Source: an uncultured Candidatus Nitrosopumilus sp. (lineage in GTDB: Archaea > Thermoproteota > Nitrososphaeria > Nitrososphaerales > Nitrosopumilaceae). Taken from it: a DNA stretch of 64,000 nucleotides. Below, piece by piece: positions 2,334-57,230 of this stretch. Location of the stretch: the NCBI GenBank assembly GCA_951812645.1, contig CATOSM010000001.1, positions 537,560-601,559 on the forward strand. Reading direction: 5' to 3'. How positions within the stretch are numbered: position 1 is the stretch's first letter; each line of letters opens with the position of its first letter. Below the pieces are notes generated by a model. The model worked only from the letters and a program-made list of their open reading frames with translations, ran no database searches and had not been told where the DNA came from. The translations under genes and the position numbers were made by a program.

Positions 2334-2415
2334 AATCAACTCGTCTTAAAACTAACCATTTGGACAATATTTGATGATCATTTGGATCTATGAACCATTA
2401 GTTTCCAAACCGTAC

Positions 2416-2748
2416 ATGAAATTCACTGAAATAACAGACAAACAATGGGACATGATAGAGCCGTTGCTGCCAAAACCTGCCGCCACAGGACGTCCAAGAA
2501 GCAACGACCGAACGGTTTTAAACGGAATCATCTACGTGCTGGTTTCCGGATGCAGGTGGAGTGAGATGCCAAAGACATACGGCGATGACTCAACTGCCAA
2601 CCTAAGGCTAAGAAAATGGCAGGAGTTTGGCATATGGAAAAGGATTCTGGGACGTGCAATCAAATCCGCACACAGGCAGGGAAAAATCAACCTGGAAAAA
2701 ATATCGATTGATTCATCGTCAGTTCCCTCCAAAAAAGGGGCGACGTGA
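2416..2748 (+). CDS. IS427-like transposase, ORF A (DUF4096 N-terminal part)
   Basis: The ATG at 2416 gives MKFTEITDKQWDMIEPLLP, the usual start of these transposases, followed by GRPRSNDRTVLNGIIYVLVSGCRWSEMP and a first catalytic-domain segment ending IDSSSVPSKKGAT. The second S/D segment (IDSSS) holds the first DDE aspartate. ORF A stops at 2746-2748. Six A followed by four G at 2731-2740 allow the two AAA Lys codons to slip back one base, reading KRGDVIGFDG into ORF B. The same run is kept in copy 2, supporting programmed shifting rather than a mutation. Confidence 0.85.
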   Translation: MKFTEITDKQWDMIEPLLPKPAATGRPRSNDRTVLNGIIYVLVSGCRWSEMPKTYGDDSTANLRLRKWQEFGIWKRILGRAIKSAHRQGKINLEKISIDSSSVPSKKGAT

Positions 2749-3209
2749 TCGGATTTGACGGGTTCAAGAGAGTCACAGGCACGAAATTACATGTTGCAGT
2801 GGACGGTACCGGCTTGCCAGTATCAATCGTAATGAGCCCTGCAAATGAGCATGACAGTACGAAATTCGTAGATGTGATGGAATCAATTTCGGATTTTGCA
2901 GACGATTCCATGATGAAACAGATAGTTTCAGTCTATGCAGACAGGGGATACGGTTCAAAGCCAATCCGCAGTTATGCAAGATCAAGAAACATCATTCCGT
3001 GCATTCCCTTTGGAAAAAACGGCAGGACGGCAGATGATGATGCAGGCAAGGACAGTTACAACAGGACAAGGTTCGTAGTGGAGAGGTTCTTTGCCTGGCT
3101 GAAAAACGGGTTTCACAGAACAGGAATCAGATGTGAAAGAAACGTGGCAAACTATCTCGGGCTGGTTAGCATTGCGTCATTTTTGATGTATTGCAGGGTT
3201 TTAAGATGA
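2745..3209 (+). CDS. IS427-like transposase, ORF B (DDE catalytic part)
   Basis: 154 residues in the -1 frame relative to ORF A; made as an A-B fusion after the shift at 2731-2737 (a GTG at 2745 could in principle start it alone). It continues the RNase H-like fold: GFDGFKRVTGTKLHVAVDGTG, then VYADRGY with the second catalytic Asp, and FVVERFFAWLKNGFHRTGIRCER with the C-terminal 'Y-(2)-R-(3)-E-(6)-K'-type segment carrying the catalytic Glu. All expected blocks are present. Confidence 0.85.
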   Translation: MIGFDGFKRVTGTKLHVAVDGTGLPVSIVMSPANEHDSTKFVDVMESISDFADDSMMKQIVSVYADRGYGSKPIRSYARSRNIIPCIPFGKNGRTADDDAGKDSYNRTRFVVERFFAWLKNGFHRTGIRCERNVANYLGLVSIASFLMYCRVLR

Positions 3210-3408
3210 GTTGGTGATCAATTTAAACAGAATCATGATCAATCAACTAGAATGAAATGATCTTCAAGCTCTGTGCAATGTACAAAGTGACACTTCGTGC
3301 ATTAGAATATTATAGAATAGTAAAACTACAAACATCATAATTTTGTGAAAAATAAAGTAATCTGTACAGTGTTTTGGCTGTGTTATACTAAAACTGAACT
3401 TTGGTTTT

Positions 3409-6400
3409 TTACTCTAGGATCTTGTATGTAACTTTATAATAAAACCTAGAAACCTGATCATCTTTTATGACTTCGACATTCCAATTTGCATCAGGCAGGA
3501 ATTCTATAGGAGATTCAGGCAAAATACTAAATTTCTCAAGACGGACATCAGGTCCACTATATCTTACGTTTAGACCAAGTCCATCCACTTCAACAACATC
3601 ATAGATTTGTCCTTGTTTTCTAGTAGATTCTCGAACCAAACAATTAGCATCCTGACCAATAATACAAGTTCCAGTCACAGTAGAAACACGCAAATCAACA
3701 TTAGATTCATCCCCCCTAACAGGAGTTACTAGGGACCCAGATAGAACTCTAGGTGCCACAGTTATATCATCAGTTGTTGTCTCAGCAGTGGAAATAGAAA
3801 TGGTCTTATCAGCAATTCTATTTGATTTTTCAATCACAGTACTCAATTTTGGAGTATATTGTTTTTCCATAACAGGGAATGTGACAGAAGAAGTCTCAAA
3901 ATCAGCATCAACTACAACTTTGTATGTGCCTATTGCAGAAGGATCATCGGGAATTACAAATTGATGTGTAAATGATCCTGAAGGACTAGGTCTAATTACA
4001 GTTACAGGGCCATCATCAGTTCCACAGATAAATGAGCCACAGTCGATTTCGTCATCTTCTTGTTGTGAAACACTTACTTCAAATGTTTCAATGTAAATTA
4101 ATTTAGATGGCTTTCCAGTAATCACCACTGTATCACCAGGATAGTATTCGGATTTGTCAACTTCTAACAACAGAGACAGATCCGCATCACTGCCAAATAC
4201 AAAATCATTTGCTACACTAAATCGGGATTCAGATTGAGTATTTACATAGTTTGCACGAACTAGGTATTCACCTTCAGTAAAAATGGTGGCAGGTAATTCA
4301 AAGGTGCTAGAGAATTCACCACCCTGATTAGGATATACTGAGGATTCATGAAGTACTTTAGTGGCATAGACCCCATCAATAACTTTTAGATGTACTCTTT
4401 CAGGGACAACCAAACCTTCATCGCCCTGATAACGTTTGATAACGTCACCAAATACTTTTAATTTTTCACTAGCTTTGTAGATAGATTTTTCAGTTGATAC
4501 GAATAAGGGATTTTTTGATAGCGCATCATTCAAAGGATCTGCGGAGACCTTAAAGAAAAGGTCATAGCTTTCAGAAGCAGTAGAAACTTTGATTTTGTAA
4601 ATTCCATAATTCGAAGTTCTAACATCCCGCCCATCGTCATCCTTTAATTTTTGAGGTTTTTCATATACAGGAACATCCCAATTCCAAGAAAACCGTTGAT
4701 TTTCCACTAATGCGCCGGAATCGGTTCTAGTGCCATCAGGCCTAGTGACAGTGATAAATACCGAATTATCAGGAGTAGGTGGCATAATGCCAGTAAGACG
4801 TACAGTCTCACCTAAACCATAAACTTCTTTATCAATAGTAACGACGGCGCCATCTTCTAAAGCAAGGGAATCAATAATAGAAAACGTACTAGTTATTGTC
4901 TCAGAGCCATATTGAGATTTTACGACATAATTTCCAGCACTGAAAAGAATTTTAGATACATCAACATCTACAGAATATCTTCCAGAAGTTTCAGGAATTG
5001 CATTAAAGTCGTAACCAACAGTAATTCCCCCAGCAGATAATTTTTTACCGCCATCAGATAAGCCAATTATTTCTAAAGGTCTTCCCAATTCATCATAGAT
5101 AGTAACCTTAACTGCAGAAAGAGTACCATAACTTGAACTGGCATACGGATCCTTTACAAAACCGCTAACAGTAATAGTATCACCAAATTCATACAGATTT
5201 GCATTAGTAGAAACCGTAAGAGGATCATTAGAAACAACAAAATTATCAGGATCAGTTACAGCGGGAATCACAATAGTAGCAGAACCAACATCTTTTGATA
5301 CAGTGATTTTGTAATCGCCTAATCTAGTGTTACTGTTAGGAATAGTAAAAGAATAGTCAAAAGTGCCATCACCATTTATTGTCACACCATCCAAAATTTT
5401 AAACCCCGGGTCACTAGTAGAGGACATATCAGTAGAAGTTTGTTTAGTTTGGACAATTTCTAAATCCAAAGTACTAACAAAAACTTGGTTTAATCTACCA
5501 GTAATATGGACGACATCTCCTAACCCATAGGCAACTTTATCAGCCCAAAGAGATATTGGCACATCTTCTTTGAAATCTTCGACAACTTCAAAGGAAGTAG
5601 TGGCAGATTTGTCAAAATATTCAGCAGTTATCACAAAAGTTCCATAATTTGGAGAAACAGTAGTAAGGAAAAGAGTGGTTTTGAATTCATTGTCAGAAGG
5701 ATACAGATTTCCACTAGAAATCAGATTACCCATAGAATCATTTACAGTGAATTTTAGGCCTTCAAAAGGAATGATTTCTGTTGAAAATCCAGTGATTGAA
5801 ACTGTCTGCCCTGGAAGATATTGTGGATTGTCAGTGGCAATAGTCAGTTCCCCGTCTTGTTTTATCTCTTGTTCAATTATTTCATAACCCACAGAGAAAC
5901 TTGTATCAGCAGTTGCTCCAGCATATGATACTGCTACATCATAAACTCCTTCGTTAATTCCAAGCACCTGATGTAGACTAAGAGAGGCATCAAATTCAAG
6001 ATTAAGATCGGGGTACATTGTAATGACTTTGTTAAAATTCGGACCGGTGATTGTCATGGTAATTTGTTCAGGTTGAAAGAAAGGCCGATATGTAAAAACT
6101 TCTTCAGAAACACTTCCAGAAAGTATTGCAGTATCACCAAACAAGTAAGAAGGACTTTCAGAAGATACAGTTATGGCGATGCTTTCAGATCCTTGTGTTT
6201 CAACCAGTTTACCATTAGAAGAACCAGCAGTGGAGGTTACAAATTTCCAATCCCCATCAGTGTCTGAATCATATGCGTCATAGATTCTTTGCCAAGAAGT
6301 AAAATCATTTTGAATATCAGAAATGGTAGGAGTCTTGTCAATCACAATGTCGTTTTCGTCTCGAAGTTCTACAGATTCGTTTGCATCGGTGAACCAAACA

Positions 6401-6684
6401 TTTTGATAAGAATAAGTCAAAAATTGATCTGATTTGATTATAGTGCCAGAAGGAATAGTCATTGTTTTTTTAAGTATGGTTGTAGATGCAATCTCCCACC
6501 CGCTTAAATCAATATCAGAGTCAGTAGGATTGTAAAGTTCAATCCATTCAGAGATGGTTGTAGAGTCATCACCGGGAGGATTGATATCAACCTCGTTAAT
6601 TACAACATGATCAGCTGTTTGAGCATACACAGGCGCCGATAGACCTACAAAAAGCAATACAGATAGTAAGAGAGTGCGATTCAT
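3409..6684 (-). CDS. Large secreted protein: lamin-tail domain plus about seven Ig-like repeats
   Basis: 1091 residues. The N-terminus is a signal peptide (LLLSVLLFVGLSAPVYA before QTADHVV). Residues about 25-150 form a lamin-tail domain (VVINEVDINPPG, WIELYNPTDSDIDLSGW). Then come about seven beta-sandwich repeats, each opening with a 'Y..GDTV.I.G'-like signature (for example YLFGDTAILSG, YLPGQTVSITG, YGLGDVVHITG, YEFGDTITVSG, YGLGETVRLTG, YYPGDTVVITG; one degenerate). The tail lacks a hydrophobic anchor, so the protein is probably released or bound to the S-layer. Lamin-tail domains occur in secreted nucleases and cell-surface proteins of prokaryotes; no nuclease motif is visible here. A surface or adhesion role is inferred. 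Confidence 0.8.
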   Translation of the reverse strand: MNRTLLLSVLLFVGLSAPVYAQTADHVVINEVDINPPGDDSTTISEWIELYNPTDSDIDLSGWEIASTTILKKTMTIPSGTIIKSDQFLTYSYQNVWFTDANESVELRDENDIVIDKTPTISDIQNDFTSWQRIYDAYDSDTDGDWKFVTSTAGSSNGKLVETQGSESIAITVSSESPSYLFGDTAILSGSVSEEVFTYRPFFQPEQITMTITGPNFNKVITMYPDLNLEFDASLSLHQVLGINEGVYDVAVSYAGATADTSFSVGYEIIEQEIKQDGELTIATDNPQYLPGQTVSITGFSTEIIPFEGLKFTVNDSMGNLISSGNLYPSDNEFKTTLFLTTVSPNYGTFVITAEYFDKSATTSFEVVEDFKEDVPISLWADKVAYGLGDVVHITGRLNQVFVSTLDLEIVQTKQTSTDMSSTSDPGFKILDGVTINGDGTFDYSFTIPNSNTRLGDYKITVSKDVGSATIVIPAVTDPDNFVVSNDPLTVSTNANLYEFGDTITVSGFVKDPYASSSYGTLSAVKVTIYDELGRPLEIIGLSDGGKKLSAGGITVGYDFNAIPETSGRYSVDVDVSKILFSAGNYVVKSQYGSETITSTFSIIDSLALEDGAVVTIDKEVYGLGETVRLTGIMPPTPDNSVFITVTRPDGTRTDSGALVENQRFSWNWDVPVYEKPQKLKDDDGRDVRTSNYGIYKIKVSTASESYDLFFKVSADPLNDALSKNPLFVSTEKSIYKASEKLKVFGDVIKRYQGDEGLVVPERVHLKVIDGVYATKVLHESSVYPNQGGEFSSTFELPATIFTEGEYLVRANYVNTQSESRFSVANDFVFGSDADLSLLLEVDKSEYYPGDTVVITGKPSKLIYIETFEVSVSQQEDDEIDCGSFICGTDDGPVTVIRPSPSGSFTHQFVIPDDPSAIGTYKVVVDADFETSSVTFPVMEKQYTPKLSTVIEKSNRIADKTISISTAETTTDDITVAPRVLSGSLVTPVRGDESNVDLRVSTVTGTCIIGQDANCLVRESTRKQGQIYDVVEVDGLGLNVRYSGPDVRLEKFSILPESPIEFLPDANWNVEVIKDDQVSRFYYKVTYKILE

Positions 6685-43028: not shown

Positions 43029-44003
43029 TTAGAAACCTTTTGGAAGTGTGCCTCTAGATTCTTTTGGTGCTTTAGGTTCTGGTTCAAAACCTTTTGGCAA
43101 AGTGCCTCTACTAGCTGTAGCTCGAGATTTAGCTTCTGTTTCAAGCAGTTCCTGGAATGCTTTTTCTTCTTCTATCTTTTGTTGTTCTAATCTTTGCAAG
43201 TAATCTGCTTCATAATCTGCAAGTTTTTCTTGTCTAGACTTTCCATCTGCAACATACGTTGATTGTTGTTGTGGCGGTGGAGCTTGTTGTGTTTGTTCCA
43301 TACCTTTTGGAAGTGTACCTTTTGCAGGCTTTGGCGGTTCTGGAGTTGTAGTTTGTTGTGCTGGTGCATCGACACCTTCAACTGACATGTTAATTCCACT
43401 AAAACTTCCAAATGTTTTATCAGACGGATGGTATGCAAGTCTTGCTCTTGTTGCATAGTACTGGTTTGATACTGCAGTATAGCCAGTAACAGTTGCTTTT
43501 TGATCATTCCAATTTTTGGTTGGAACTTTTCCCACAGGAGCAGTTAATCTAACAAAGTATCTGTTAGGAGCTGGAGAATAGCCTGTTACTTTTGCCCTAT
43601 AATCATGGAATGATGTCATAGGTGCAGTCATGTATGCATTCTCTAGTGCGTCCTGCACAGTTGCCGGAGGTTGTGATGTAGTTTCAGCTGGCTTTGGAGA
43701 TTCTGCAGGTTTTTCCTCAAATCCCTTAGGCAGAGTGCCTTTTGGCTTGGTATTTGCTGCGGGTCTCTCGGATGGTTTTGTCTCAGCTGGCTTTGGAGAT
43801 TCTGCAGGTTTTTCCTCAAATCCCTTAGGCAGAGTGCCTTTTGGCTTGGTATTTGCTGCGGGTCTCTCGGATGGTTTTGTCTCAGCTGGCTTTACTTCAG
43901 CTGGTTTTGATTCTAGCTGAGTAGAAAGTTTGTTTAGCTTTGCTTCTAATTCGGCAATCTTGTTTTCAAGATCTGCTTTAGTTTGCTTTTTAGCAGCGGC
44001 CAT
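43029..44003 (-). CDS. Repeat protein with GTLPKG(F/M) motifs
   Basis: About 324 residues from the ATG at 44003 (MAAAKKQTKADLE); an ATG 33 bases upstream is less likely. A short coiled coil (ADLENKIAELEAKLNKLSTQLE) is followed by Pro/Lys/Glu-rich linker with two identical 33-residue units. Two similar beta-type segments come next, each with an AKVTGYS/ATVTGYT core (about 135-200), then a Gln/Glu-rich helix. The motif GTLPKG(F or M) occurs five times, the last being the very C-terminus (RGTLPKGF). No signal peptide or TM. Repeated short motifs joined by disordered linkers suggest a multivalent scaffold; function unknown. Confidence 0.7.
   Translation of the reverse strand: MAAAKKQTKADLENKIAELEAKLNKLSTQLESKPAEVKPAETKPSERPAANTKPKGTLPKGFEEKPAESPKPAETKPSERPAANTKPKGTLPKGFEEKPAESPKPAETTSQPPATVQDALENAYMTAPMTSFHDYRAKVTGYSPAPNRYFVRLTAPVGKVPTKNWNDQKATVTGYTAVSNQYYATRARLAYHPSDKTFGSFSGINMSVEGVDAPAQQTTTPEPPKPAKGTLPKGMEQTQQAPPPQQQSTYVADGKSRQEKLADYEADYLQRLEQQKIEEEKAFQELLETEAKSRATASRGTLPKGFEPEPKAPKESRGTLPKGF
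43684..43881 (-). repeat. Exact tandem duplication, 2 x 99 bp, inside the GTLPKGF gene
   Basis: Units 43684-43782 and 43783-43881 are identical by eye at every base; a 12-base start of a third unit follows. Each encodes 33 residues with one GTLPKGFE motif. The lack of silent differences means a very recent duplication or ongoing copy-number change. Confidence 0.9.
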
Positions 44004-44090
44004 AGTCTGGATTGTCAATCTGGGGTTTATGTACATTTGGGTTGATTACGCTAACCAATTTTGATGAAGTTTTATATGCTAATTTAGATC

Positions 44091-47071: not shown

Positions 47072-47228
47072 GTGATCTTCATCTTCTAGAATTTCTATTT
47101 AATCCTTGATAGAAATATCGAACAAAAAAAGAAATAAACAAAATAAGTGATTTGTGCTCAATTTTTGAGAAATGCGTGTTCTAATATTCACGTTATTTTT
47201 AAGTAGGGTGCAAAAATCAGATCAGATC

Positions 47229-48011
47229 ATGGTATCAGGTAATCAAATCAGACTTAATCGAATTATCAGAAAAGGACGAATGTTGTGTATTCCAATGGAT
47301 CATGGTATTTCAGATGGACCGATGGAAGGTCTTGAAGATCCAGCATCCACAATTTACAAATGTGAAGGGCACGGACTCACAAGTGTAATTATCAACAAAG
47401 GAATTCTCAAAGCACTACCAAAACCAACCAAAATAGGAATTTTAGTTCATTTTTCAAGCAGTACAGCATTATCTCTAGCACCAAATCGTAAAATGCTAAC
47501 AGGAACTGTAAAAGAAGCAGCTGCGATGGGAGCTGATGGAGTTTCATTACACATCAACATCGGAGGTAAAGAGGAACCAGAAATGTTAGAACAACTTGGA
47601 ATGACAGCAGACCAATGTCACAAATGGGGAATGCCTCTTTTAGCAATGATGTATCCAAGAGGAGAAAATATCAAAAATCCACATGATCCAGAAGTTGTAG
47701 GACATGTTGCAAGAATTGGAGCAGAATGCGGTGCAGACATTGTAAAAACACTGTACACGGGAGATATTGATTCATTTGCAAAAATTGTAAAGAGTACGCC
47801 GGTTCCAGTAGTAATTGCTGGTGGACCAAAAGCTAAAACAGATTTAGATATTCTTCAGATGACAGAAGATGCAATGACTGCAGGTGCTAAAGGAGTCACA
47901 TACGGTAGAAACATCTTTGCACATAAAACACCTGAAAAAATGGTAGAAGCATTAGCTGAAATAATTTTCAGGAAAGGAACCGCAAAGGAAGCAATGAAAA
48001 AAATTGAGTAA
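47229..48011 (+). CDS. 2-amino-3,7-dideoxy-D-threo-hept-6-ulosonate synthase (AroA', ADH synthase)
   Basis: First step of the archaeal shikimate route, condensing a deoxyhexose phosphate with aspartate semialdehyde. A FBP-aldolase class I fold is visible: [56 protein letters not shown] with the Schiff-base Lys, and PVVIAGGPK. The ATG at 47229 is the family-like start; a TATA-like TATTTTTAAG lies about 30 bases upstream. It overlaps the next gene by eight bases and heads the aro cluster. Confidence 0.9.
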
Positions 48012-49062
48012 AACAAGAGAATTGATAATTTCACCTAAAGGATCACAAGCACAGTTATCTAAACTTCTTCCCCAATTACAAGAAGAAGGAATCAAAATGG
48101 TACATCTTGATCCAAAAAAAATAGGTAAGAAAAAAACTAAACTCCAAACAGTTTTTGCTTCAAATGCAGCAAACTATGTGGTATTAGACAAAGAAGGTCC
48201 AAAACCAAAGGGCAAAAAAGTTGGACGGAAATTCGAAATACTGTCAAACACGGATATTGAAAACGTTCTCACAATAGCAAAAAAAGGATTAGATTTTGTA
48301 ATCGTAGAAGTAAAAGATTGGAAAATCATCCCATTAGAAAACATCATTGCAAAACTACACAAAATTCACACAAAAATATTTGCCATTGCAAAAACGCCCG
48401 AAGAAGTTAGAAAAATGTTCTCAATCCTAGAGGTAGGTGTAGACGGAGTAATTTTCAGTACATCATCAATCAACAAAGTACGTGAAGTCATGGTATATCT
48501 AGGAACCAAGAGTTTTGATATGAAACCTGCAAAGATTACAGAAATCAAAGAAGTGGGAGATGGAGAACGAGTTTGTGTAGATACCGCATCCATGTTACAC
48601 AAAGGAGAAGGTATGTTGATCGGTAGTAGATCAAACTTTTTGTTTTTGGTTCATAATGAATCAGTAGGATCATCATTTACATCACCAAGACCATTCAGAG
48701 TTAATGCAGGTGCAGTTCATTGTTACACGTTATCACCAGATGGAACAACAAATTATCTATCAGAAGTGGAAACAGGTTCAGAAGTATTAATTCTAAATTC
48801 AAAAGGCAAAGCAAGAAGAGCCACTGTAGGAAGATCAAAGATCGAACGCAGGCCAATGCTAATGATCAAAGCATCGGTAGGAGAAGAAGCAGGTGGAATT
48901 ATAGCACAAGATGCAGAGACAATTCGTTTTGTAAAATCAAATGGACAACTAGTTTCAGTTACACATCTAAAGAAAGGAGATACGGTTATGGTCCATTCAA
49001 AACCTGCAGCAGGCAGACATTTTGGAATGGAAGTTTCAGACGAATATATTTTAGAAAAATGA
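48004..49062 (+). CDS. 3-dehydroquinate synthase type II (AroB')
   Basis: 352 residues, TTG start coupled to AroA'. It has the archaeal DHQS-II signatures FVIVEVKDWKIIPLENIIA, EVGDGERVCVDTASMLHKGEGMLIGS, PRPFRVNAGAVHCYTLSPDGTTNYLSEVE and the ending THLKKGDTVMVHSKPAAGRHFGM. It oxidises and deaminates the AroA' product with NAD to give 3-dehydroquinate. Confidence 0.95.
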   Translation: MSKTRELIISPKGSQAQLSKLLPQLQEEGIKMVHLDPKKIGKKKTKLQTVFASNAANYVVLDKEGPKPKGKKVGRKFEILSNTDIENVLTIAKKGLDFVIVEVKDWKIIPLENIIAKLHKIHTKIFAIAKTPEEVRKMFSILEVGVDGVIFSTSSINKVREVMVYLGTKSFDMKPAKITEIKEVGDGERVCVDTASMLHKGEGMLIGSRSNFLFLVHNESVGSSFTSPRPFRVNAGAVHCYTLSPDGTTNYLSEVETGSEVLILNSKGKARRATVGRSKIERRPMLMIKASVGEEAGGIIAQDAETIRFVKSNGQLVSVTHLKKGDTVMVHSKPAAGRHFGMEVSDEYILEK

Positions 49063-49730
49063 GATACAAAACATGTGTTTCCATAGCAGAAAAAACACCG
49101 AGTAAAACTAAAAAAGTTCTAAAAATAGCACTGGCCAAATCAGATTTTGTAGAAGTTAGATTGGATTTTCTAAAAAGTACACAAGTTCCAGAAACATTAG
49201 AAATGATAAAGAAGAATCTTGGAAGAGTTGTGTGCACAATAAGACCTAAAAATGAAGGAGGTAAATTCAATGGAAGTGAAAAAGAAAGAATTGCAATTTT
49301 GAAATTAATTGCAGAATATAATCCATTTTTACTAGATGTGGAATTTAACACATTAAAGGGAAACTTGGTATTGACAAAATATTTGAAATCAACAAAAACA
49401 AAATTGTTGGTTTCATGGCATGATTTCAAAAAGACGCCAAGTTCTGTAGAGTTGAAAAAGAAAATGAGCCAGATGAGTGAATTTTCATCCAATGTCAAAA
49501 TAGTAAGTACTGCAAAATCAACAGATGATTCAACTAGAATGTTAGAGCTGTATAGTAAAAAAGGAAAAAACAACCTAATTTCATTTGCAATGGGGGATTA
49601 TGGACGGATTTCAAGAATTTTGTGCCTGTATTTGGGTAGCCCATATACTTACGCATCATTAGGAAAGGCAATTGCCCCAGGACAATTCAGTGTTGATGAG
49701 GTAAATAAAATCACAAATTTAAAAAAATAG
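49059..49730 (+). CDS. aroD: 3-dehydroquinate dehydratase, type I
   Basis: 223 residues; the ATG overlaps the AroB' stop (ATGA). Active-site blocks: VEVRLDFL, LVSWHDFKKTPS with the general-base His, and VKIVSTAKSTDD with the Schiff-base Lys, then SFAMGDYGRISRI and AIAPGQFSVDEV. The frame is open upstream within AroB' but the ATGA start is the natural one. Confidence 0.93.
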   Translation: MRYKTCVSIAEKTPSKTKKVLKIALAKSDFVEVRLDFLKSTQVPETLEMIKKNLGRVVCTIRPKNEGGKFNGSEKERIAILKLIAEYNPFLLDVEFNTLKGNLVLTKYLKSTKTKLLVSWHDFKKTPSSVELKKKMSQMSEFSSNVKIVSTAKSTDDSTRMLELYSKKGKNNLISFAMGDYGRISRILCLYLGSPYTYASLGKAIAPGQFSVDEVNKITNLKK

Positions 49731-49780
49731 CAACATCAAAGTTGAGAGTTTAAATCAATCATAATACCCAAGAAAATAAG

Positions 49781-50602
49781 ATGAGCAAATCATTTGCAGT
49801 AATCGGAGATCCTATCGATCATTCATTATCTCCAAATATCCACAGCGCGGCATTTAGAGAATTAGGTTTGGATTCCTCATACATTGCATATAGAATTCCA
49901 AAAGGAGAATTAGAAGAAGGAATCGAAGGATTAAAAAAAATAAAAATCAATGGTTTTAACATCACCATTCCACACAAAATTGAAATGATGAAGTATCTAG
50001 ATAAAATCGATGAATCATGTAGTCTCATCGGAGCTGTAAATACAGTAGCAAACAATGATGGAATTTTAAAAGGATACAACACAGACATGGATGGATTTTT
50101 AGAACCATTTAAGAAAAAGGGATTAAACATTGCAGGAGACAAAGTTCTTTTAATTGGGGCCGGAGGAGCTGCAAGGGCAATAGTTGCAGGATTTGCAAAA
50201 GAAAAAGCAAGAAGCACAACCATAGCAAACAGAACGATAGAGAATGCAACTAATCTCTCAAATTTTGCAAAAACAGTCGGATTGGATGCAACGCCAATAC
50301 ATATTACAGATGTTGGCAATACAGCGAAAAATTATGACATAATTGTAAATGCAACGTCAATAGGACTCAAAAATGAATCAAGTGTGATTTCATTAGAAGG
50401 GATCAATGAAAAAACAGTTGTGTATGATATCGTATACATGCCAATGAATACAGATTTTATTAGAAAAGCAAAGAAGCAAAAAGCAACCATCATTTACGGT
50501 TATGAAATGCTGCTAGGTCAAGCAGCAAGGGCGTTTGAGATTTGGCATGGCGTAGAAGCGCCTTATAATGCGATGAAAAAATCACTGTTGGGAGGATTTT
50601 GA
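49781..50602 (+). CDS. aroE: Shikimate dehydrogenase
   Basis: 273 residues. Substrate site GDPIDHSLSPNIHSAAF and FNITIPHKIEMMKYLD (catalytic Lys and Asp), NADPH-binding LIGAGGAARAIVAGF, and NRT in IANRTIENA. It reduces 3-dehydroshikimate to shikimate. The stop TGA overlaps the next ATG (TGATG at 50600-50604). Confidence 0.95.
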   Translation: MSKSFAVIGDPIDHSLSPNIHSAAFRELGLDSSYIAYRIPKGELEEGIEGLKKIKINGFNITIPHKIEMMKYLDKIDESCSLIGAVNTVANNDGILKGYNTDMDGFLEPFKKKGLNIAGDKVLLIGAGGAARAIVAGFAKEKARSTTIANRTIENATNLSNFAKTVGLDATPIHITDVGNTAKNYDIIVNATSIGLKNESSVISLEGINEKTVVYDIVYMPMNTDFIRKAKKQKATIIYGYEMLLGQAARAFEIWHGVEAPYNAMKKSLLGGF

Positions 50603-51453
50603 TGGCAAAGGTAAAGGCTACAGTCCATGGGGCAGTATCAATAGTAAATGCAATTGCAAACCAAAAAGGAGCTACATTAGGAATTGCGTTAAAAGTAGAG
50701 GCCACAGTAGAGGCAAGTCCAGGAAAAGGAATATCAATTCAATCTGAAAGGAGCCTCAGTTCACGCCTAATCAATAAAACAATAGAAAAAGTTGTTTCAA
50801 AAAAAGATTTAGAGCAAAACAAAATATCGATAAAACTAGATTCAGAAATCCCAACAGGATACGGATTGAAGAGTTCAAGTGCAATTTCTTCAGCAGTCGC
50901 ATTAGCATGTGCAAAAATATTCAGACCAAAGTTAGCTGATCAACAAATTTTATTGGCAGGAGTAGATGCATCAATCGAATCCAAAGTAAGTATTACCGGA
51001 GCATATGACGATGCATGTTCGTGTTATTACGGAGGATTCAATGTTACAGACAATGCAAAGAAAAAAAGAATTCAGTTTGAAAAAGGCCCATCAAACTTGA
51101 TTGCAGTGATATTTATTCCAAAAAATAGAAAAAGAGGAAATCTAAAAAAACTCAAAATTCTTTCATCAGTATTTGAAAATGCGTGGGAGTTATCTAAAAA
51201 AGCAAACTATTGGGATGCAATGATAATAAATGGATTAGCTACGGCATCAATTTTAAATTCAGAACCTAAAATTATTACAGGCCTGATTGAAAAAGGGGCA
51301 TTAGGTGCATCGGTTTCAGGGAATGGACCATCTATTGCAGCAGTTACAAAAAAAGAAAATGAAACAGCAATTAAAAAAGTATTTTCAGCATTAGAAGGAA
51401 ACATCATTGTTTCAAAAATTAGCAATGAAAAGGCAGAAGTTCATGAAGTGTGA
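50602..51453 (+). CDS. aroK: Shikimate kinase, archaeal GHMP type
   Basis: 283 residues, from the ATG at 50602 in a TGATG coupling with aroE. GHMP-kinase motif 2 is IPTGYGLKSSSAISSA; motif 3 is GALGASVSGNGPSIAAV. This is the archaeal replacement for bacterial AroK. Product: shikimate 3-phosphate, the substrate of the broken aroA that overlaps its 3' end (ATG at 51443). Confidence 0.93.
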   Translation: MAKVKATVHGAVSIVNAIANQKGATLGIALKVEATVEASPGKGISIQSERSLSSRLINKTIEKVVSKKDLEQNKISIKLDSEIPTGYGLKSSSAISSAVALACAKIFRPKLADQQILLAGVDASIESKVSITGAYDDACSCYYGGFNVTDNAKKKRIQFEKGPSNLIAVIFIPKNRKRGNLKKLKILSSVFENAWELSKKANYWDAMIINGLATASILNSEPKIITGLIEKGALGASVSGNGPSIAAVTKKENETAIKKVFSALEGNIIVSKISNEKAEVHEV

Positions 51454-52204
51454 AATAGATAAATCAAAAATTTCAGGTCAAATAGTTTGTCCCCCAAGCA
51501 AGAGATATACGTACAGGGCTGTTTTTCTGGCATCGCTTGCAGAGAAAAAACAGTATTGTTGAAAATGTATTACTTTCTGCAGATACAAAGGCAGCAATTG
51601 AAACATGTAGAAAATTTGGAGCAGAAATAGAAGTCAAAGATACCTCAATTATTGCCAAAAATTCAATAAAAACAGGCACAAAAGTGCCTGAAATTAACAC
51701 AGAAAATTCAGGAGCCACGATTCGAATTGCATCAGGCATCGCCAGTTTGTTTTCTGATGAGATTATACTTGCAGGAGATTCAAGTTTACAAAAAAGACCA
51801 ATGCAGCCATTGTTAGATCCACTATCAAGTATGGAGCACAATGTGATTCAACAGATGGAAAGCCGCCAATCAAAATTAAAGGAAAAATCGTTGGAGGAGA
51901 TGTAAGAATTCCAGGAAATTTTTCAAGTCAATTTATCTCATCATTGTTGATTTCTGCACCACTGGCAGAAAAAGGAATCATTTTAGCTATAGAAGATAAC
52001 CTAGTATCAAAACCGTATCTAGATGGAGCAATATCTACGATGAGAAAGTTTGGTGTTACAGTTCAGACACTCATACCATACAAAAAATACAATCAACTCG
52101 TCTTAAAACTAACCATTTGGACAATATTTGATGATCATTTGGATCCATGAACCGTTAGTTTCCACGCTGTACATGAAATTCACCGAGATGACAGACAACG
52201 GGAC

Positions 52205-52501
52205 ATGATGGAGCCGTTGCTGTCAAAACCTGCTGTCACAGGACGTCCAAGAGGCAATGACCGGATGGTTTTAAATGGAATCATCTACGTGCTGGTTTCC
52301 GGATGCAGGTGGAGTGAGATGCCAAAGACATACGGTGATGACTCAACTGCCAACCTAAGGCTAAGAAGATGGCAGGAGTTTGGCATATGGAAAAAGATTT
52401 TGGGGCGTGCAATCAAATCCGCACACAGACAGGGAAAAATCAACCTGGAAAAAATATCGATTGATTCATCGTCAATTCCCTCTAAAAAAGGGGCGACGTG
52501 A
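52205..52501 (+). pseudogene. Transposase ORF A of IS copy 2, N-terminally frameshifted
   Basis: The normal start (ATG near 52172, MKFTEMTDN) runs into a stop after the 4-bp deletion; what remains open begins at an ATGATG at 52205. Otherwise it matches ORF A of copy 1 with scattered substitutions and keeps the six-A slippery run (52483-52488). It probably lacks the N-terminal DNA-binding residues and is inactive. Confidence 0.8.
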
Positions 52502-52962
52502 TCGGATTTGATGGGTTCAAGAGAATCACAGGTACGAAATTACATGTTGCAGTGGATGGTACCGGCTTGCCAATATCAATTGTAATGAGCCCTGCAAATG
52601 AGCATGACAGTACGAAATTCGTAGATGTGATGGAATCAATTTCGGATTTTGCAGATGATTCCATGATGGAACAAATAGTTTCAGTCTATGCAGACAGGGG
52701 ATACGATTCAAAACCAATCCGCAGTTATGCAAGATCAAGAAACATCATTCCGTGCATTCCTTTTAGAAAAAACAGCAGGACGGCAAGTGATGATACGGAC
52801 AAGGACAGTTACAACAGGACAAGATTCGTAGTGGAACGGTTCTTTGCCTGGCTGAAAAACGGGTTTCACAGAACAGGAATCAGATGTGAAAGAAACGCGG
52901 GAAATTATCTCGGGCTGGTTAGCATTGCGTCATTTTTGATGTATTGCAGGGTTTTAAGATAA
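52498..52962 (+). CDS. Transposase ORF B of IS copy 2
   Basis: 154 residues, nearly the same as copy 1 ORF B. The catalytic VYADRGY and FVVERFFAWLKN segments are intact. Reached only by -1 frameshifting from the damaged ORF A, so a full transposase is unlikely from this copy. Confidence 0.75.
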   Translation: MIGFDGFKRITGTKLHVAVDGTGLPISIVMSPANEHDSTKFVDVMESISDFADDSMMEQIVSVYADRGYDSKPIRSYARSRNIIPCIPFRKNSRTASDDTDKDSYNRTRFVVERFFAWLKNGFHRTGIRCERNAGNYLGLVSIASFLMYCRVLR

Positions 52963-53580
52963 GTTAAATATTTCTCCACAAATCTATAGAGTCAAAGTTT
53001 ACAGTTCCAATAGATTTTTCAAGTATTGCTCTTCTTCTTTCAGCAACAGTTCTAAATGGAGAGGACAATACAATGAAAGGAAACACATGAAATCTACCTC
53101 AAGGGGATGAAGTTTTCATAGATATTTGAGCAATTAGGAGTTGAGATTATAATGGAGGATGAACAAATTGGGATCAAATCTCCAGATAAACTAAAAGGAG
53201 GAAAATTTGATCTGAGCAACTCGCCAGATCTTCTCCCACCACTTGCAATTTTGACATTACGTGCATCATCACCAATTGAAATTTTCAATGTAAAACATGC
53301 AAGATTAAAAGAAACAGATAAAATATCAATTATTTCAAGAGAACTTGTGAAAATTGGAATTAAGATTCAAGAAAATGAAGACGGCATGATTTTAGAACCA
53401 TCGGAAAACACATCAGGGGCCAATTTGAATTCAGAATACCACAGATTATTCACGGCATTCTGTATTGCAGGAATGCATATACTGAATTGTACAGTTTCAG
53501 ATCCTGAATCAGTTAATGTATCATATCCAAACTTTATAGAAGAAATGAGTAGAATGGGCGCAAAAATTACAATCAAATAA

Positions 53581-53909
53581 TTTCATTTTTCAAAAAAACA
53601 ATACTGAGAGATAAAAGGCACGACCCCGTATATAGTGAAAAGCATTCTCCTCACTCACAACGCTTTTGCGTAGATAACATGGTTTTTCACAGAGCCGCGC
53701 AAATTATTCAGTATAATTTACATGATTTTGCACATATCTTGTATATTGTTATGATATTTAACAATACATTATAATTATTTGATAGAATATTCAACAATAT
53801 TAAAATTTTCAAACAGGTGTAAAAGAAAACAAAAAGAAACTAACCGTCTAATCAAAACCTAAGGAAATTTCAGAATGAGGAATTATAAGCATCGATTAAC
53901 TTTGATAGT
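53581..53909. other. 329-bp intergenic region between aroA remnant and aroC
   Basis: No CDS seen. At about 53632-53639 there is a TATA-like GTATATAG followed by a GC-richer 60-base patch (ACTCACAACGCTTTTGCG ... CAGAGCCGCGCAAAT) in which GTGAAAA at 53636 and TTTTTCAC at about 53685 can pair. This could be a small RNA, but no known family is recognised. From 53720 on it is very AT-rich. Confidence 0.35.
53881..53889 (+). promoter_or_regulatory. TATA-like element before aroC
   Basis: AATTATAAG lies 21-29 bases before the ATG at 53910. It would give aroC its own near-leaderless transcript, so genes below the broken aroA could still be expressed despite the IS insertion. Confidence 0.4.
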
Positions 53910-55007
53910 ATGTTGCCTGGAAGTTCTATTGGTCAGCGTCTTGTTCTAACAAGTTTTGGGGAAAGTCATGGAAAATCTATCGGAGCGGCGTTAGACGGGT
54001 GCCCAGCAGGATTAGAAATTGATGAAAAAGATATTCAAAAAATGTTAGACCTTAGAAGGCCAGGACAAAACATAATCTCTACACAAAGAAAAGAAGGCGA
54101 TGTAGTAGAAATTATTTCAGGTGTGTTCAGAGGACGCACTACAGGAGCACCGATTACAATGGTCATTTGGAATAGTGATCAAAAATCAGAAGATTATGAA
54201 AATTTGAAAACAAAACTGAGACCAGGACATTCAGATTATCCTGCTATGACAAAATATAATCATCATAATGATCATAGAGGAGGAGGCAGATTTTCTGGAA
54301 GACTAACAGCAACCCACGTTATGGGAGGAGCTATTGCAAGAAAATTACTCAAGGTTACACTAGGTATTGAAACAAATTCATTTACATCACAAATTGGAAA
54401 AATAAAGATGAAAAGAGAATTCAATGAAAAAATGATCAATTCAATTTATAAAAATGAAGTTAGATGTCCAGAAACAAAAACAGCAAAAGCAATGAGAGAG
54501 AGCATTTTAGATGCTAAAAAGAAAGGAGATTCACTCGGAGGAATAATAGAATCAGTTACAACAAAAGTTCCAGTGGGATTAGGAGAGCCAATTTTCAGTT
54601 CGTTAGAATCGGATTTAAGCAAAGCAATTTTTTCAATACCTTCTGTAAAAGGAATTGAGTTTGGGTCAGGATTCCAGGGTTCTGAATTATATGGTTCGGA
54701 AAATAATGATTTGTACACAGTTAAGAAAGGAAAAATTGTCACTCAAACAAATAGATCCGGAGGAATCCTAGGAGGAATTTCTAACGGGATGCCAATTACA
54801 ATGAGAATTGCATTCAAACCAGCTTCGTCGATTGCTCAAAAACAAAAGACAGTAGACATAAAGACAAAAAAAGAAACAATGCTACAAGTTAAAGGCAGGC
54901 ATGACCCATGCGTAGTACCTAGAGCCCCTCCAGTGGTAGACTCACTAGTAGCATTAACAATTGCAGATCATGCACTCATTTCAGGCGCAATAAAACCAAC
55001 ATTATAA
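53910..55007 (+). CDS. aroC: Chorismate synthase
   Basis: 365 residues. Signatures: SFGESHGKSIGAALDGCPAGLEI, RRPGQN, SDYPAMTKYNHHNDHRGGGRFSGRLTA, GSGFQGSELYGSENND, NRSGGILGGISNGMPI and KGRHDPCVVPRAPPVVDSL. It turns EPSP into chorismate with reduced FMN. It is fully intact although the gene making EPSP is not. Confidence 0.97.
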   Translation: MLPGSSIGQRLVLTSFGESHGKSIGAALDGCPAGLEIDEKDIQKMLDLRRPGQNIISTQRKEGDVVEIISGVFRGRTTGAPITMVIWNSDQKSEDYENLKTKLRPGHSDYPAMTKYNHHNDHRGGGRFSGRLTATHVMGGAIARKLLKVTLGIETNSFTSQIGKIKMKREFNEKMINSIYKNEVRCPETKTAKAMRESILDAKKKGDSLGGIIESVTTKVPVGLGEPIFSSLESDLSKAIFSIPSVKGIEFGSGFQGSELYGSENNDLYTVKKGKIVTQTNRSGGILGGISNGMPITMRIAFKPASSIAQKQKTVDIKTKKETMLQVKGRHDPCVVPRAPPVVDSLVALTIADHALISGAIKPTL

Positions 55008-55011
55008 AAAA

Positions 55012-56382
55012 ATGTCAGACATAAACGAACTTCGAAATAAGATGGACGAAGTTACTTTAAAAATGATAGAGTTGCTAAAGACAAGAACGGAAATTGCAAA
55101 AGAAATAGGGGAGGTCAAAAAAAATATTGGCAAGGTAGTAACAGATGAAGCAAGGGAAAAAAGTTTACGTGAAAAAGTAATTTCATTTTGTAGCAACATA
55201 GGAATGGATGAAGCGATTGCTACAAAATTTTTAAATTTTCTCTTAAACGAATCAGTAAAAGTTCAATCATCAAATAAACAAACACATCTTTCAATTTTCT
55301 TAAAGGCAAAAGAAATGGAAGAACAAGGGAAAAAAATCATCCACATGGAGGTAGGAGAGCCTGACTTTTTACCACCAAAAATTGTTAAAGATGCATTAGA
55401 AAAAGTATTTGAGAAAGGATTTTTAAAATATGGTCAAGCAAAAGGGATGCCAGCGTTTAGGGAGGCACTTGCAAAATATGCTTCAAAAAAATTCAATGCA
55501 AGCATTCAACAAGAAAACATCATTGTAAGTCCAGGTGCGCGATTTTCAATTTTTACAGCAATTACAACATTACTCAACCCAGGTGATGAAATGATTGTAA
55601 TCGAGCCTGCATGGCCAGCATACAAAGATTGTGCGTTAAATTCAGGGATTAAAGTTAGAACTATCAGCACCACATTTGAAGACAAATGGGATCCATCAAT
55701 AGAACAAATCAAAGATACGATTAACTCAAACACAAAAATGATTGTGTTAAATTATCCAAACAACCCAACAGGCAAAATTCTAGATGAAAAATTACAAGAT
55801 GAAATTATAGTACTGGCAAGAAAAAATAGCCTCTACGTGTTAAGTGATGAAATTTATTCACAATATGCAAAATCAAATTGGAAAAGCATACTTGGTTATA
55901 ATTATGAAAAGAGTATTGTCATACAATCATTTTCAAAATCACATGCAATGACAGGATTCAGAGTGGGGTATGGAATAGCAGATTCAAGGATAATTGAAAA
56001 AATGGCAGGGTTGGAGGCGTTATGTCTGACAAGCGTCTCAGAACCAATACAGTACATAGCCATGAAGGCCCTAGAGGCAGACATATCCAACAATTCTAAT
56101 ACAGTGCAAAACAGACTAGATATGTTGGCACAAAAAGCAACTGAAATGGGCTTAGATTTTGTTATCCCAGATGGTGCAATGTACCTTTTTGCTAGAGTTA
56201 ATCAAGAAGGGTTTGATGGAGTTCAATTTGCCAACAGTGCATTAGAAAAAGGATTGGCAGTGGCCCCTGGAGAAGGATTTGGAGATTACAAAAATTTTAT
56301 CAGACTTTCAGCATGTCAAAACGAAAAAACACTGATTGAAGGAATGAATATACTTGGTGATATAATGAGTGAGGGACAATGA
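55012..56382 (+). CDS. Chorismate mutase - aminotransferase fusion
   Basis: 456 residues. Residues 1-85 are an AroQ-type chorismate mutase (INELRNKMDEVTLKMIELLKTRTEIAKEIGEVKK...DEAREKSLREKV). Residues about 90-456 are a class I/II PLP aminotransferase with NYPNNPTG (247-254), SDEIY (278-282) and the PLP Lys309 in QSFSKSHAMTG. The fusion joins chorismate-to-prephenate with transamination of prephenate, phenylpyruvate or hydroxyphenylpyruvate. It starts four bases after aroC and overlaps tyrA by four. Confidence 0.92.
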   Translation: MSDINELRNKMDEVTLKMIELLKTRTEIAKEIGEVKKNIGKVVTDEAREKSLREKVISFCSNIGMDEAIATKFLNFLLNESVKVQSSNKQTHLSIFLKAKEMEEQGKKIIHMEVGEPDFLPPKIVKDALEKVFEKGFLKYGQAKGMPAFREALAKYASKKFNASIQQENIIVSPGARFSIFTAITTLLNPGDEMIVIEPAWPAYKDCALNSGIKVRTISTTFEDKWDPSIEQIKDTINSNTKMIVLNYPNNPTGKILDEKLQDEIIVLARKNSLYVLSDEIYSQYAKSNWKSILGYNYEKSIVIQSFSKSHAMTGFRVGYGIADSRIIEKMAGLEALCLTSVSEPIQYIAMKALEADISNNSNTVQNRLDMLAQKATEMGLDFVIPDGAMYLFARVNQEGFDGVQFANSALEKGLAVAPGEGFGDYKNFIRLSACQNEKTLIEGMNILGDIMSEGQ

Positions 56383-57230
56383 AGAAGATCACAGTAGTCG
56401 GTGCAGGAGGTCAAATGGGACAATGGTTTGCAAAATATTTTGCAAGTGCAGGATTTGAAGTAACAGGATATGATTCAGAAAACAGGGTTTCAGGAAAAGA
56501 CATTATTACATCAGAATCCCTAGTAGGGGGAATTCTAAAAGCAGATTATGTGGTTCTTTGTACGCCAACGAGAAGAACGCCTGAAATAATCAGACTGATA
56601 GCAAAAGAGATGAAGCGTGGAACGTATCTAATTGAAATCTCATCTGAAAAATCCAAAGTAGTTTCATCATTATCAAAAATGCCGGCAAAAATAAATCCAA
56701 TTTGCATTCATCCAATGTTTGGACCAGGTATAAAGACAATCAAAGGTCAAAATATTATTTCAGTACCGATCAAAGATGCTAAAAAAGAATTGACCGTAAC
56801 AAAAGCATTGTTTGAAGGGGCAAATTTTGTTACAATAGATGCAGTTGAACATGACAAAAAAATTGCAGTCATACTAGGCTTAACTCATTTAATGAATTTA
56901 GTTTTTGCAAACATCATTTCAAAAGATGAAAAGATGAATCTTACAGAAAAGATGTCAGGCACAACGTTCAGAGTACAAAAAACATTGGCAGAGAGTATAA
57001 TGACAGAATCCCCTGAACTCATTGAGACCATCATTGCAAATCCAGAAATTCGTAGAGTTGCAGAAGAGCTTTGGAAAGACATTGGCAGACTCTTAACATC
57101 TGTTCAAGAATCAAAAACAGAAGAAGTGATAAATTATATCAAGGAATGTCAAGAAAGACTGGCAAAGCATACCGATACGAATGGGTCATACAAAAAACTC
57201 ACAAAAATGGTAAAAGCAGTCGAAAAATAG
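56379..57230 (+). CDS. tyrA: Prephenate/arogenate dehydrogenase
   Basis: 283 residues. Rossmann motif VVGAGGQMGQWFAKYF at the start, then DYVVLCTPTRRTPEII and the conserved His in ICIHPMFGPGIKTIKGQN, LTHLMNLVFANII. It makes the tyrosine precursor by oxidative decarboxylation. Coupled to the mutase-aminotransferase (ATGA). Confidence 0.92.
   Translation: MKKITVVGAGGQMGQWFAKYFASAGFEVTGYDSENRVSGKDIITSESLVGGILKADYVVLCTPTRRTPEIIRLIAKEMKRGTYLIEISSEKSKVVSSLSKMPAKINPICIHPMFGPGIKTIKGQNIISVPIKDAKKELTVTKALFEGANFVTIDAVEHDKKIAVILGLTHLMNLVFANIISKDEKMNLTEKMSGTTFRVQKTLAESIMTESPELIETIIANPEIRRVAEELWKDIGRLLTSVQESKTEEVINYIKECQERLAKHTDTNGSYKKLTKMVKAVEK

Follow-up and report, generated by a model that had tools for sequence, protein, structure and literature searches.

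Does a broken gene in an otherwise complete chorismate operon imply that an archaeon depends on its surroundings for the products of that pathway, or is the corresponding enzyme encoded elsewhere in its genome? This question is raised by a 64-kb stretch of DNA (G000:C1:537560-601559, hereafter the window) from a genome of the genus Nitrosopumilus, whose members are ammonia oxidizers. The source genome (G000) comprises 2.20 Mb in 7 contigs and has a completeness of 99.64% and an estimated contamination of 8.79%. We conclude, with a probability of about 0.88, that the native aroA in this operon is a pseudogene and that its function has likely passed to a distantly related EPSP synthase that was probably acquired horizontally and of which the genome holds two intact gene copies.

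The native aroA and its operon

The chorismate operon spans positions 47172-57230 of the window (Table 1). Its eight genes other than aroA match their counterparts in the congener G035 essentially over the full length, and the native aroA, located between aroK and aroC, lies in pieces, as the first-pass annotation had claimed in naming aroA the sole broken gene of the operon. For the upstream part, the names ADTH synthase, DHQ synthase II, aroD, and aroE follow that annotation. Elsewhere in the window, a 335-aa ORF on the minus strand (43029-44036) contains repeated units of the KGTLPKGFE type and is a low-complexity repeat protein.

The aroA remnants extend over positions 51443-53577 and consist of five segments, matched to the congener protein across several frame changes and one in-frame stop, and an 872-bp insertion element of the IS5 family. 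Within the 3' part, a piece of 142 aa is still open (53152-53580). The first, catalytic motif of the fossil reads KRYTYR, as compared to KSY(T/S)HR in all 28 native homologues checked (23 from the genus and 5 from the order). The damage previously noted from the letters alone, i.e., indels, a changed catalytic motif, an insertion element, and further breaks, is thus confirmed as a whole. Homopolymer errors are ruled out as the full cause of this damage by the insertion and the changes in the catalytic motif.

Rates of change give a further, modest signal. On the G000 branch, dN of the fossil was 0.079 (0.050-0.111; 195 comparable aroA codons, matched segments with less than 60% identity left out) versus 0.025 on the G035 branch, and the eight other operon genes had dN values of 0.009-0.059 on the former branch; values for aroE (0.059) and aroD (0.056) are also raised, and the intervals overlap with that of the fossil. 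Judging by these values, the fossil aroA apparently lost its constraint at a late stage of the G000 branch. Separately, aroD and aroE (49059-50602) evolved faster on this branch than most of their neighbours, which hints that selection was relaxed or shifted outside aroA as well; selection may have been relaxed more widely than in this one gene.

Table 1. Coordinates of the chorismate operon, the aroA remnants, and the alternative EPSP synthase genes. Positions refer to the window unless preceded by the contig (C1).
Feature	Position	Strand	Description
ADTH synthase (aroA'), DHQ synthase II (aroB'), aroD, aroE	47172..50602	+	Intact; upstream part of operon
aroK (shikimate kinase)	50599..51453	+	Intact; upstream neighbour of aroA
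aroA pseudogene, 5' part	51443..52094	+	Three frame segments, catalytic motif altered; residues ~1-218
aroA segment 1	51443-51553	+	Congener protein residues 1-37
aroA segment 2	51510-51836	+	Congener protein residues 23-131
aroA segment 3	51818-52096	+	Congener protein residues 126-218
IS5-family insertion element inside aroA	52095..52966	+	872 bp; terminal inverted repeats and transposase ORFs
aroA pseudogene, 3' part	52967..53577	+	Frame change and in-frame stop; residues ~224-421
aroA segment 4	52986-53129	+	Congener protein residues 224-271; in-frame stop
aroA segment 5	53113-53574	+	Congener protein residues 267-421
aroC (chorismate synthase)	53910..55007	+	Intact; downstream neighbour of aroA
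Chorismate mutase-aminotransferase and tyrA	55012..57230	+	Intact; downstream part of operon
Alternative aroA, copy A	C1:1401758-1403155	-	Intact PF00275 gene
Alternative aroA, copy B	C1:1561595-1562992	+	Intact PF00275 gene

With the G035 protein as query, native aroA was matched in 91 of 95 genomes of the genus (the pieces in G000 counted) and in all 56 genomes with a completeness of 90% or more and a contamination of 5% or less; the four genomes without a match are 53-85% complete. G000 is the only one in which aroA is spread over several frames of a single contig with an insertion element inside. Other partial or split matches fall on two contigs each (G038, G036) or comprise one extra match (G128, G117). 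Matches in two genomes lie at the very start of a contig (G115, G001), and two matches in G055 are contained within one 469-aa open frame. The neighbourhood of the gene is conserved, with aroK adjoining aroA in 26 of 26 genus loci and aroC doing so in 23 (25 genomes; G012 counted twice); among the three loci without an adjoining aroC, two are cut short and that of G051 is not. The aroK-aroA-aroC order is probably ancestral, because it recurs at the loci L009, L015, L016, and L022, which represent other families of the order, and in G265.

A distantly related EPSP synthase encoded in two copies

The first-pass annotation had left two readings side by side, i.e., that a second, possibly acquired aroA exists elsewhere or that the cell imports EPSP or products of chorismate, and had proposed to search the remaining genome for another EPSP synthase. 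This search recovered two intact genes on the same 1.86-Mb contig (C1) as the fossil. The genes are identical, inverted relative to each other, and about 158 kb apart, and both are located in a duplicated block of 2,447 bp with a single mismatch, at the fourth base from an edge. The first reading is thereby borne out as far as a distantly related second AroA is concerned, and import loses its ground given the complete EPSP synthase that sequence and predicted fold point to.

The product of both genes, P0001, is 466 aa long from the longest possible start. It scored 378.8 bits against the AroA equivalog model TIGR01356 (cut-off 287.25), and its scores of 63.8, 58.9, and 31.5 bits against models of UDP-GlcNAc enolpyruvyltransferase were far under the respective cut-offs. 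P0001 also matches solved EPSP synthases. Its structure model has a pLDDT of 92.1, and the best Foldseek matches of this model were EPSP synthases (E 3.4e-48), with a TM score of 0.85 (query length) to 1g6s. Among the 20 active-site positions checked, which follow the list and numbering of the Escherichia coli enzyme, 18 showed no variation across all 31 proteins aligned. P0001 agrees with E. coli at the invariant positions K22, S23, R27, G96, T97, R124, S169, S170, Q171, S197, Y200, D313, K340, E341, R344, H385, and R386. Exceptions relative to E. coli are N336, which is Q in 31 of 31 proteins, K411, which is replaced by I or V, and the counterpart of D49, which varies. P0001 thus resembles known AroA in scoring at the equivalog level, in most residues of the active site, and in the fold predicted for it, and differs by its identity of 34-38% to the native enzymes of the genus and by a low-confidence C-terminal tail (residues 448-466). 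Judged by sequence and predicted fold, it is an EPSP synthase that is predicted to be active.

The alternative gene is not a copy of the native one. About 60 proteins listed by protein search are closer to P0001 (45-84% identity) than the native congener proteins are. The closest relative derives from a metagenome (84%), and further records bear the names Nitrosopumilus adriaticus and Nitrosotalea sp., at 82% and 52% identity; with the closest protein at 84%, no donor lineage was found by this search. A quick tree of 220 proteins grouped 60 of the 61 alternative sequences in one clade (SH-aLRT 99), with P0062 just outside, and placed 26 native sequences of the order together on another branch (SH-aLRT 100). 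This tree covered proteins of 380-480 aa with no internal stop, L007 excluded; P0061 and two of 28 native relatives thereby fell out. The terminal branch of P0001 (0.089) is similar to the branches of its near relatives (0.079-0.15), and P0001 thus shows no sign of decay.

Few genomes carry the alternative type. It was detected in 1 of 95 genus genomes (E<=1e-100) and 2 of 250 family genomes (E<=1e-90), G000 being counted in both, and despite the record labelled N. adriaticus no other carrier was found among the 95 genus genomes at E<=1e-100. Counts in broader samples, which take in more distant proteins, were 3 of 400 genomes for the order (E<=1e-90; G000, G306, and G088) and 4 of 400 for the class (E<=1e-85), the additional one being G265 (42%). 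Two of these were rejected as carriers: the G088 protein (L040/P0063) falls outside the 60-protein clade, and the G265 gene is of the operon type, as it is located between aroK and aroC. Neither of two pattern matches in viral contigs was related to the alternative clade, and the best match among those listed from species genomes had 43% identity. No genome with both AroA types was seen among the 120 best native matches, a list too short for proof. P0021 and P0022, which are 83% alike, have the same longest contig (2,171,158 bp), and one genome may thus encode two alternative EPSP synthases.

The second carrier in the family, G306, belongs to another genus and is a genome of 3.17 Mb in one contig, with 72% G+C at the locus examined. 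Its operon retains the gene order of G000, with ubiD, mqnC, ADTH synthase, aroB', aroD, aroE, and aroK upstream of the aroA slot and aroC, mutase-aminotransferase, tyrA, and thiC downstream. Between aroK and aroC lie 2.4 kb (L146:7100-9561) in which aroA was not detectable (best tblastn E 0.38). The single PF00275 gene of G306 is located about 1.6 Mb from the operon along the contig, and its product shares 99% identity with P0051, which belongs to the alternative clade. Together with the fossil in G000, two genomes of the family therefore have no working aroA in the operon slot and carry the rare type elsewhere.

Both types could in principle be old paralogues of a common ancestor, with nearly all lineages having lost the alternative gene and the G000 lineage the native one. 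Such differential loss would be in accordance with the depth of the alternative clade and its occurrence in a second genus of the family. It would, however, require a very large number of losses, given that the type is absent from 94 of 95 genus and 248 of 250 family genomes at the thresholds used, and it sits poorly with a gene outside the operon in IS-rich surroundings. We consider this explanation improbable.

Insertion elements and the order of events

The insertion element in aroA has 15-nt terminal inverted repeats that are 87% complementary and a transposase split over two overlapping ORFs (52205-52501 and 52498-52962). The best family was NF033580 (IS5 family, cut-off 110), with 112.8 bits for the second ORF and 78.5 bits, under the cut-off, for the first. 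In G000, this type comprises the element itself, 37 near-full-length matches at 84-94% identity, and 5 partial ones (best 40 of 185 candidates scored); the type beside the alternative gene comprises the element itself, 39 matches at 90-93%, and 5 weak ones (best 40 of 199 scored). Two IS5-family types have thus expanded as a burst in G000, each with at least about 40 strong matches. When the best five candidates in each of the 94 other genus genomes were considered, any match to the aroA type occurred in 14 genomes and none was full length; the longest covered 693 of 872 bases at 69% identity, and higher identity was confined to shorter pieces. At C1:1564518-1565392, some 1.5 kb away from alternative copy B, lies one of the two closest siblings (94%) of the element in aroA, and the loci of the fossil and of copy B thus share one pool of insertion elements. 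The window contains an IS5-family copy with 94% identity to the element in aroA at positions 2338-3212 (C1:539897-540771), which adjoins a 1091-aa ORF on the minus strand (3409-6684).

Both alternative copies are preceded by a 99-bp fragment with IS-like inverted-repeat ends; the edge of the duplicated block lies 2 bp beyond this fragment. Downstream of the gene, there is a full-length insertion element in copy B and a truncated one in copy A. IS-like repeat ends occurred 12 times per 20 kb in the real sequence versus 0.03 times in shuffled sequence, and by our own estimate a block edge would fall so near a repeat end by coincidence in about 0.3% of cases; insertion elements are so common in G000 that closeness to one is weak evidence. 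The alternative gene is thus flanked on both sides by IS5-type ends, one of them only 2 bp inside the limit of the duplicated block. This layout would fit an IS-bounded unit of the composite-transposon kind, and the gene was likely moved or copied by insertion elements. We infer this movement from the arrangement, as comparison of the flanks by eye revealed no clear target-site duplication around the IS ends.

These observations also bear on the possibility of an artefact, i.e., that the alternative regions stem from another archaeon, that the assembly is a chimera or a collapsed strain mix, or that the breaks in aroA are sequencing errors. The contamination estimate of G000 gives some reason for this concern, and two identical copies could stem from assembly. 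Yet the fossil and both copies reside on one contig of 1.86 Mb, both loci carry the same IS5-family types, the type inserted in aroA is not full length among the best five candidates of any of the 94 other genus genomes, and the damage goes beyond indels to an entire insertion element and an altered catalytic motif. An artefact is therefore, in our view, quite unlikely.

It is tempting to propose the following order of events. The alternative gene would first have arrived by lateral transfer and made the operon aroA redundant, which would then have decayed amid the burst of IS5-family elements of G000 itself, and insertion elements would have moved or copied the newcomer. A difference of about 6% separates the element in aroA from the nearest sibling scored (best 40 of 185), whereas the two alternative genes are identical, and duplication of the alternative gene is thus probably younger than the insertion into aroA, unless gene conversion keeps the copies alike. 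The replacement is predicted to be expressed and active, and no auxotrophy would be expected at the EPSP synthase step.

Loss of the pathway would, conversely, imply that EPSP, chorismate, or aromatic amino acids are imported from the surroundings. The operon aroA is certainly broken, but such a dependency is not needed to account for this, because two intact EPSP synthase genes are present on the same contig; moreover, the eight other operon genes are intact, unlike in a decaying pathway. We thus regard dependency as very unlikely. That the remnants form a functional split EPSP synthase, for which the 142-aa open frame of the C-terminal piece might be cited, is barely credible in view of the several breaks, the element in the middle, the raised dN, and catalytic residues that differ from those of 28 of 28 native homologues.

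Replacement of the native gene by an acquired one could also be part of a wider process, in which a rare, IS-carried EPSP synthase lineage is passed laterally between ammonia-oxidizing archaea and, on repeated occasions, drives the native aroA out of its operon. We put this forward tentatively, as a possible yet somewhat doubtful extension of our main conclusion. If true, an essential biosynthetic gene would travel as mobile cargo, with G000 representing a stage in mid-eviction (fossil and two fresh copies) and G306 a stage after eviction (slot empty of aroA).

Comparison with known cases of gene displacement and IS expansion

Xenologous gene displacement is the replacement of an orthologue by a horizontally acquired one. 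Such a displacement, with the fossil still in place, likely accounts for the locus in G000 in preference to dependency, because the rare clade is present and the native aroA is broken, and because G306 has the alternative gene only and no aroA in the operon slot. As in xenologous displacement generally, a distant orthologue is intact, the resident gene is defunct (broken in G000 and undetectable in the slot of G306), and the gene tree disagrees with the grouping of the species, with the newcomer forming a separate clade that was found in 1 of 95 genus genomes. In contrast, the remains of the evicted gene here still occupy their place in the operon, and the two identical copies of the newcomer are located away from the operon, next to IS-type ends.

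When a foreign orthologue has replaced a core enzyme, this is usually deduced from trees, after the resident gene has disappeared. In G000, the intermediate is still readable, with the old gene dead in its operon and the newcomer intact, duplicated, and flanked by IS-type sequences, and a second genus, represented by G306, shows what appears to be the finished state. The order of events, the donor, and the advantage of the replacement thereby become testable. The case also illustrates that a broken pathway gene in one genome window does not imply auxotrophy. Literature on archaeal EPSP synthase and aroA, insertion elements, and displacement, mostly at the level of titles, contained no report of this case.

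Expansion of IS5-family elements itself has precedent. Across 20 genomes of Thaumarchaeota, one species had 43 IS5 copies and others had few or none (PMC6563490), and many transposases have been described for some sponge symbionts (PMC7848895), as far as the parts of these two sources considered here extend. The terms 'shikimate' and 'EPSP' are absent from the examined text of the former study (PMC6563490). An expansion of IS5 elements is common to that study and ours, and the genome analyzed here differs from the part of it considered in that two types have each reached at least about 40 strong matches and that one copy resides inside a core biosynthetic gene.
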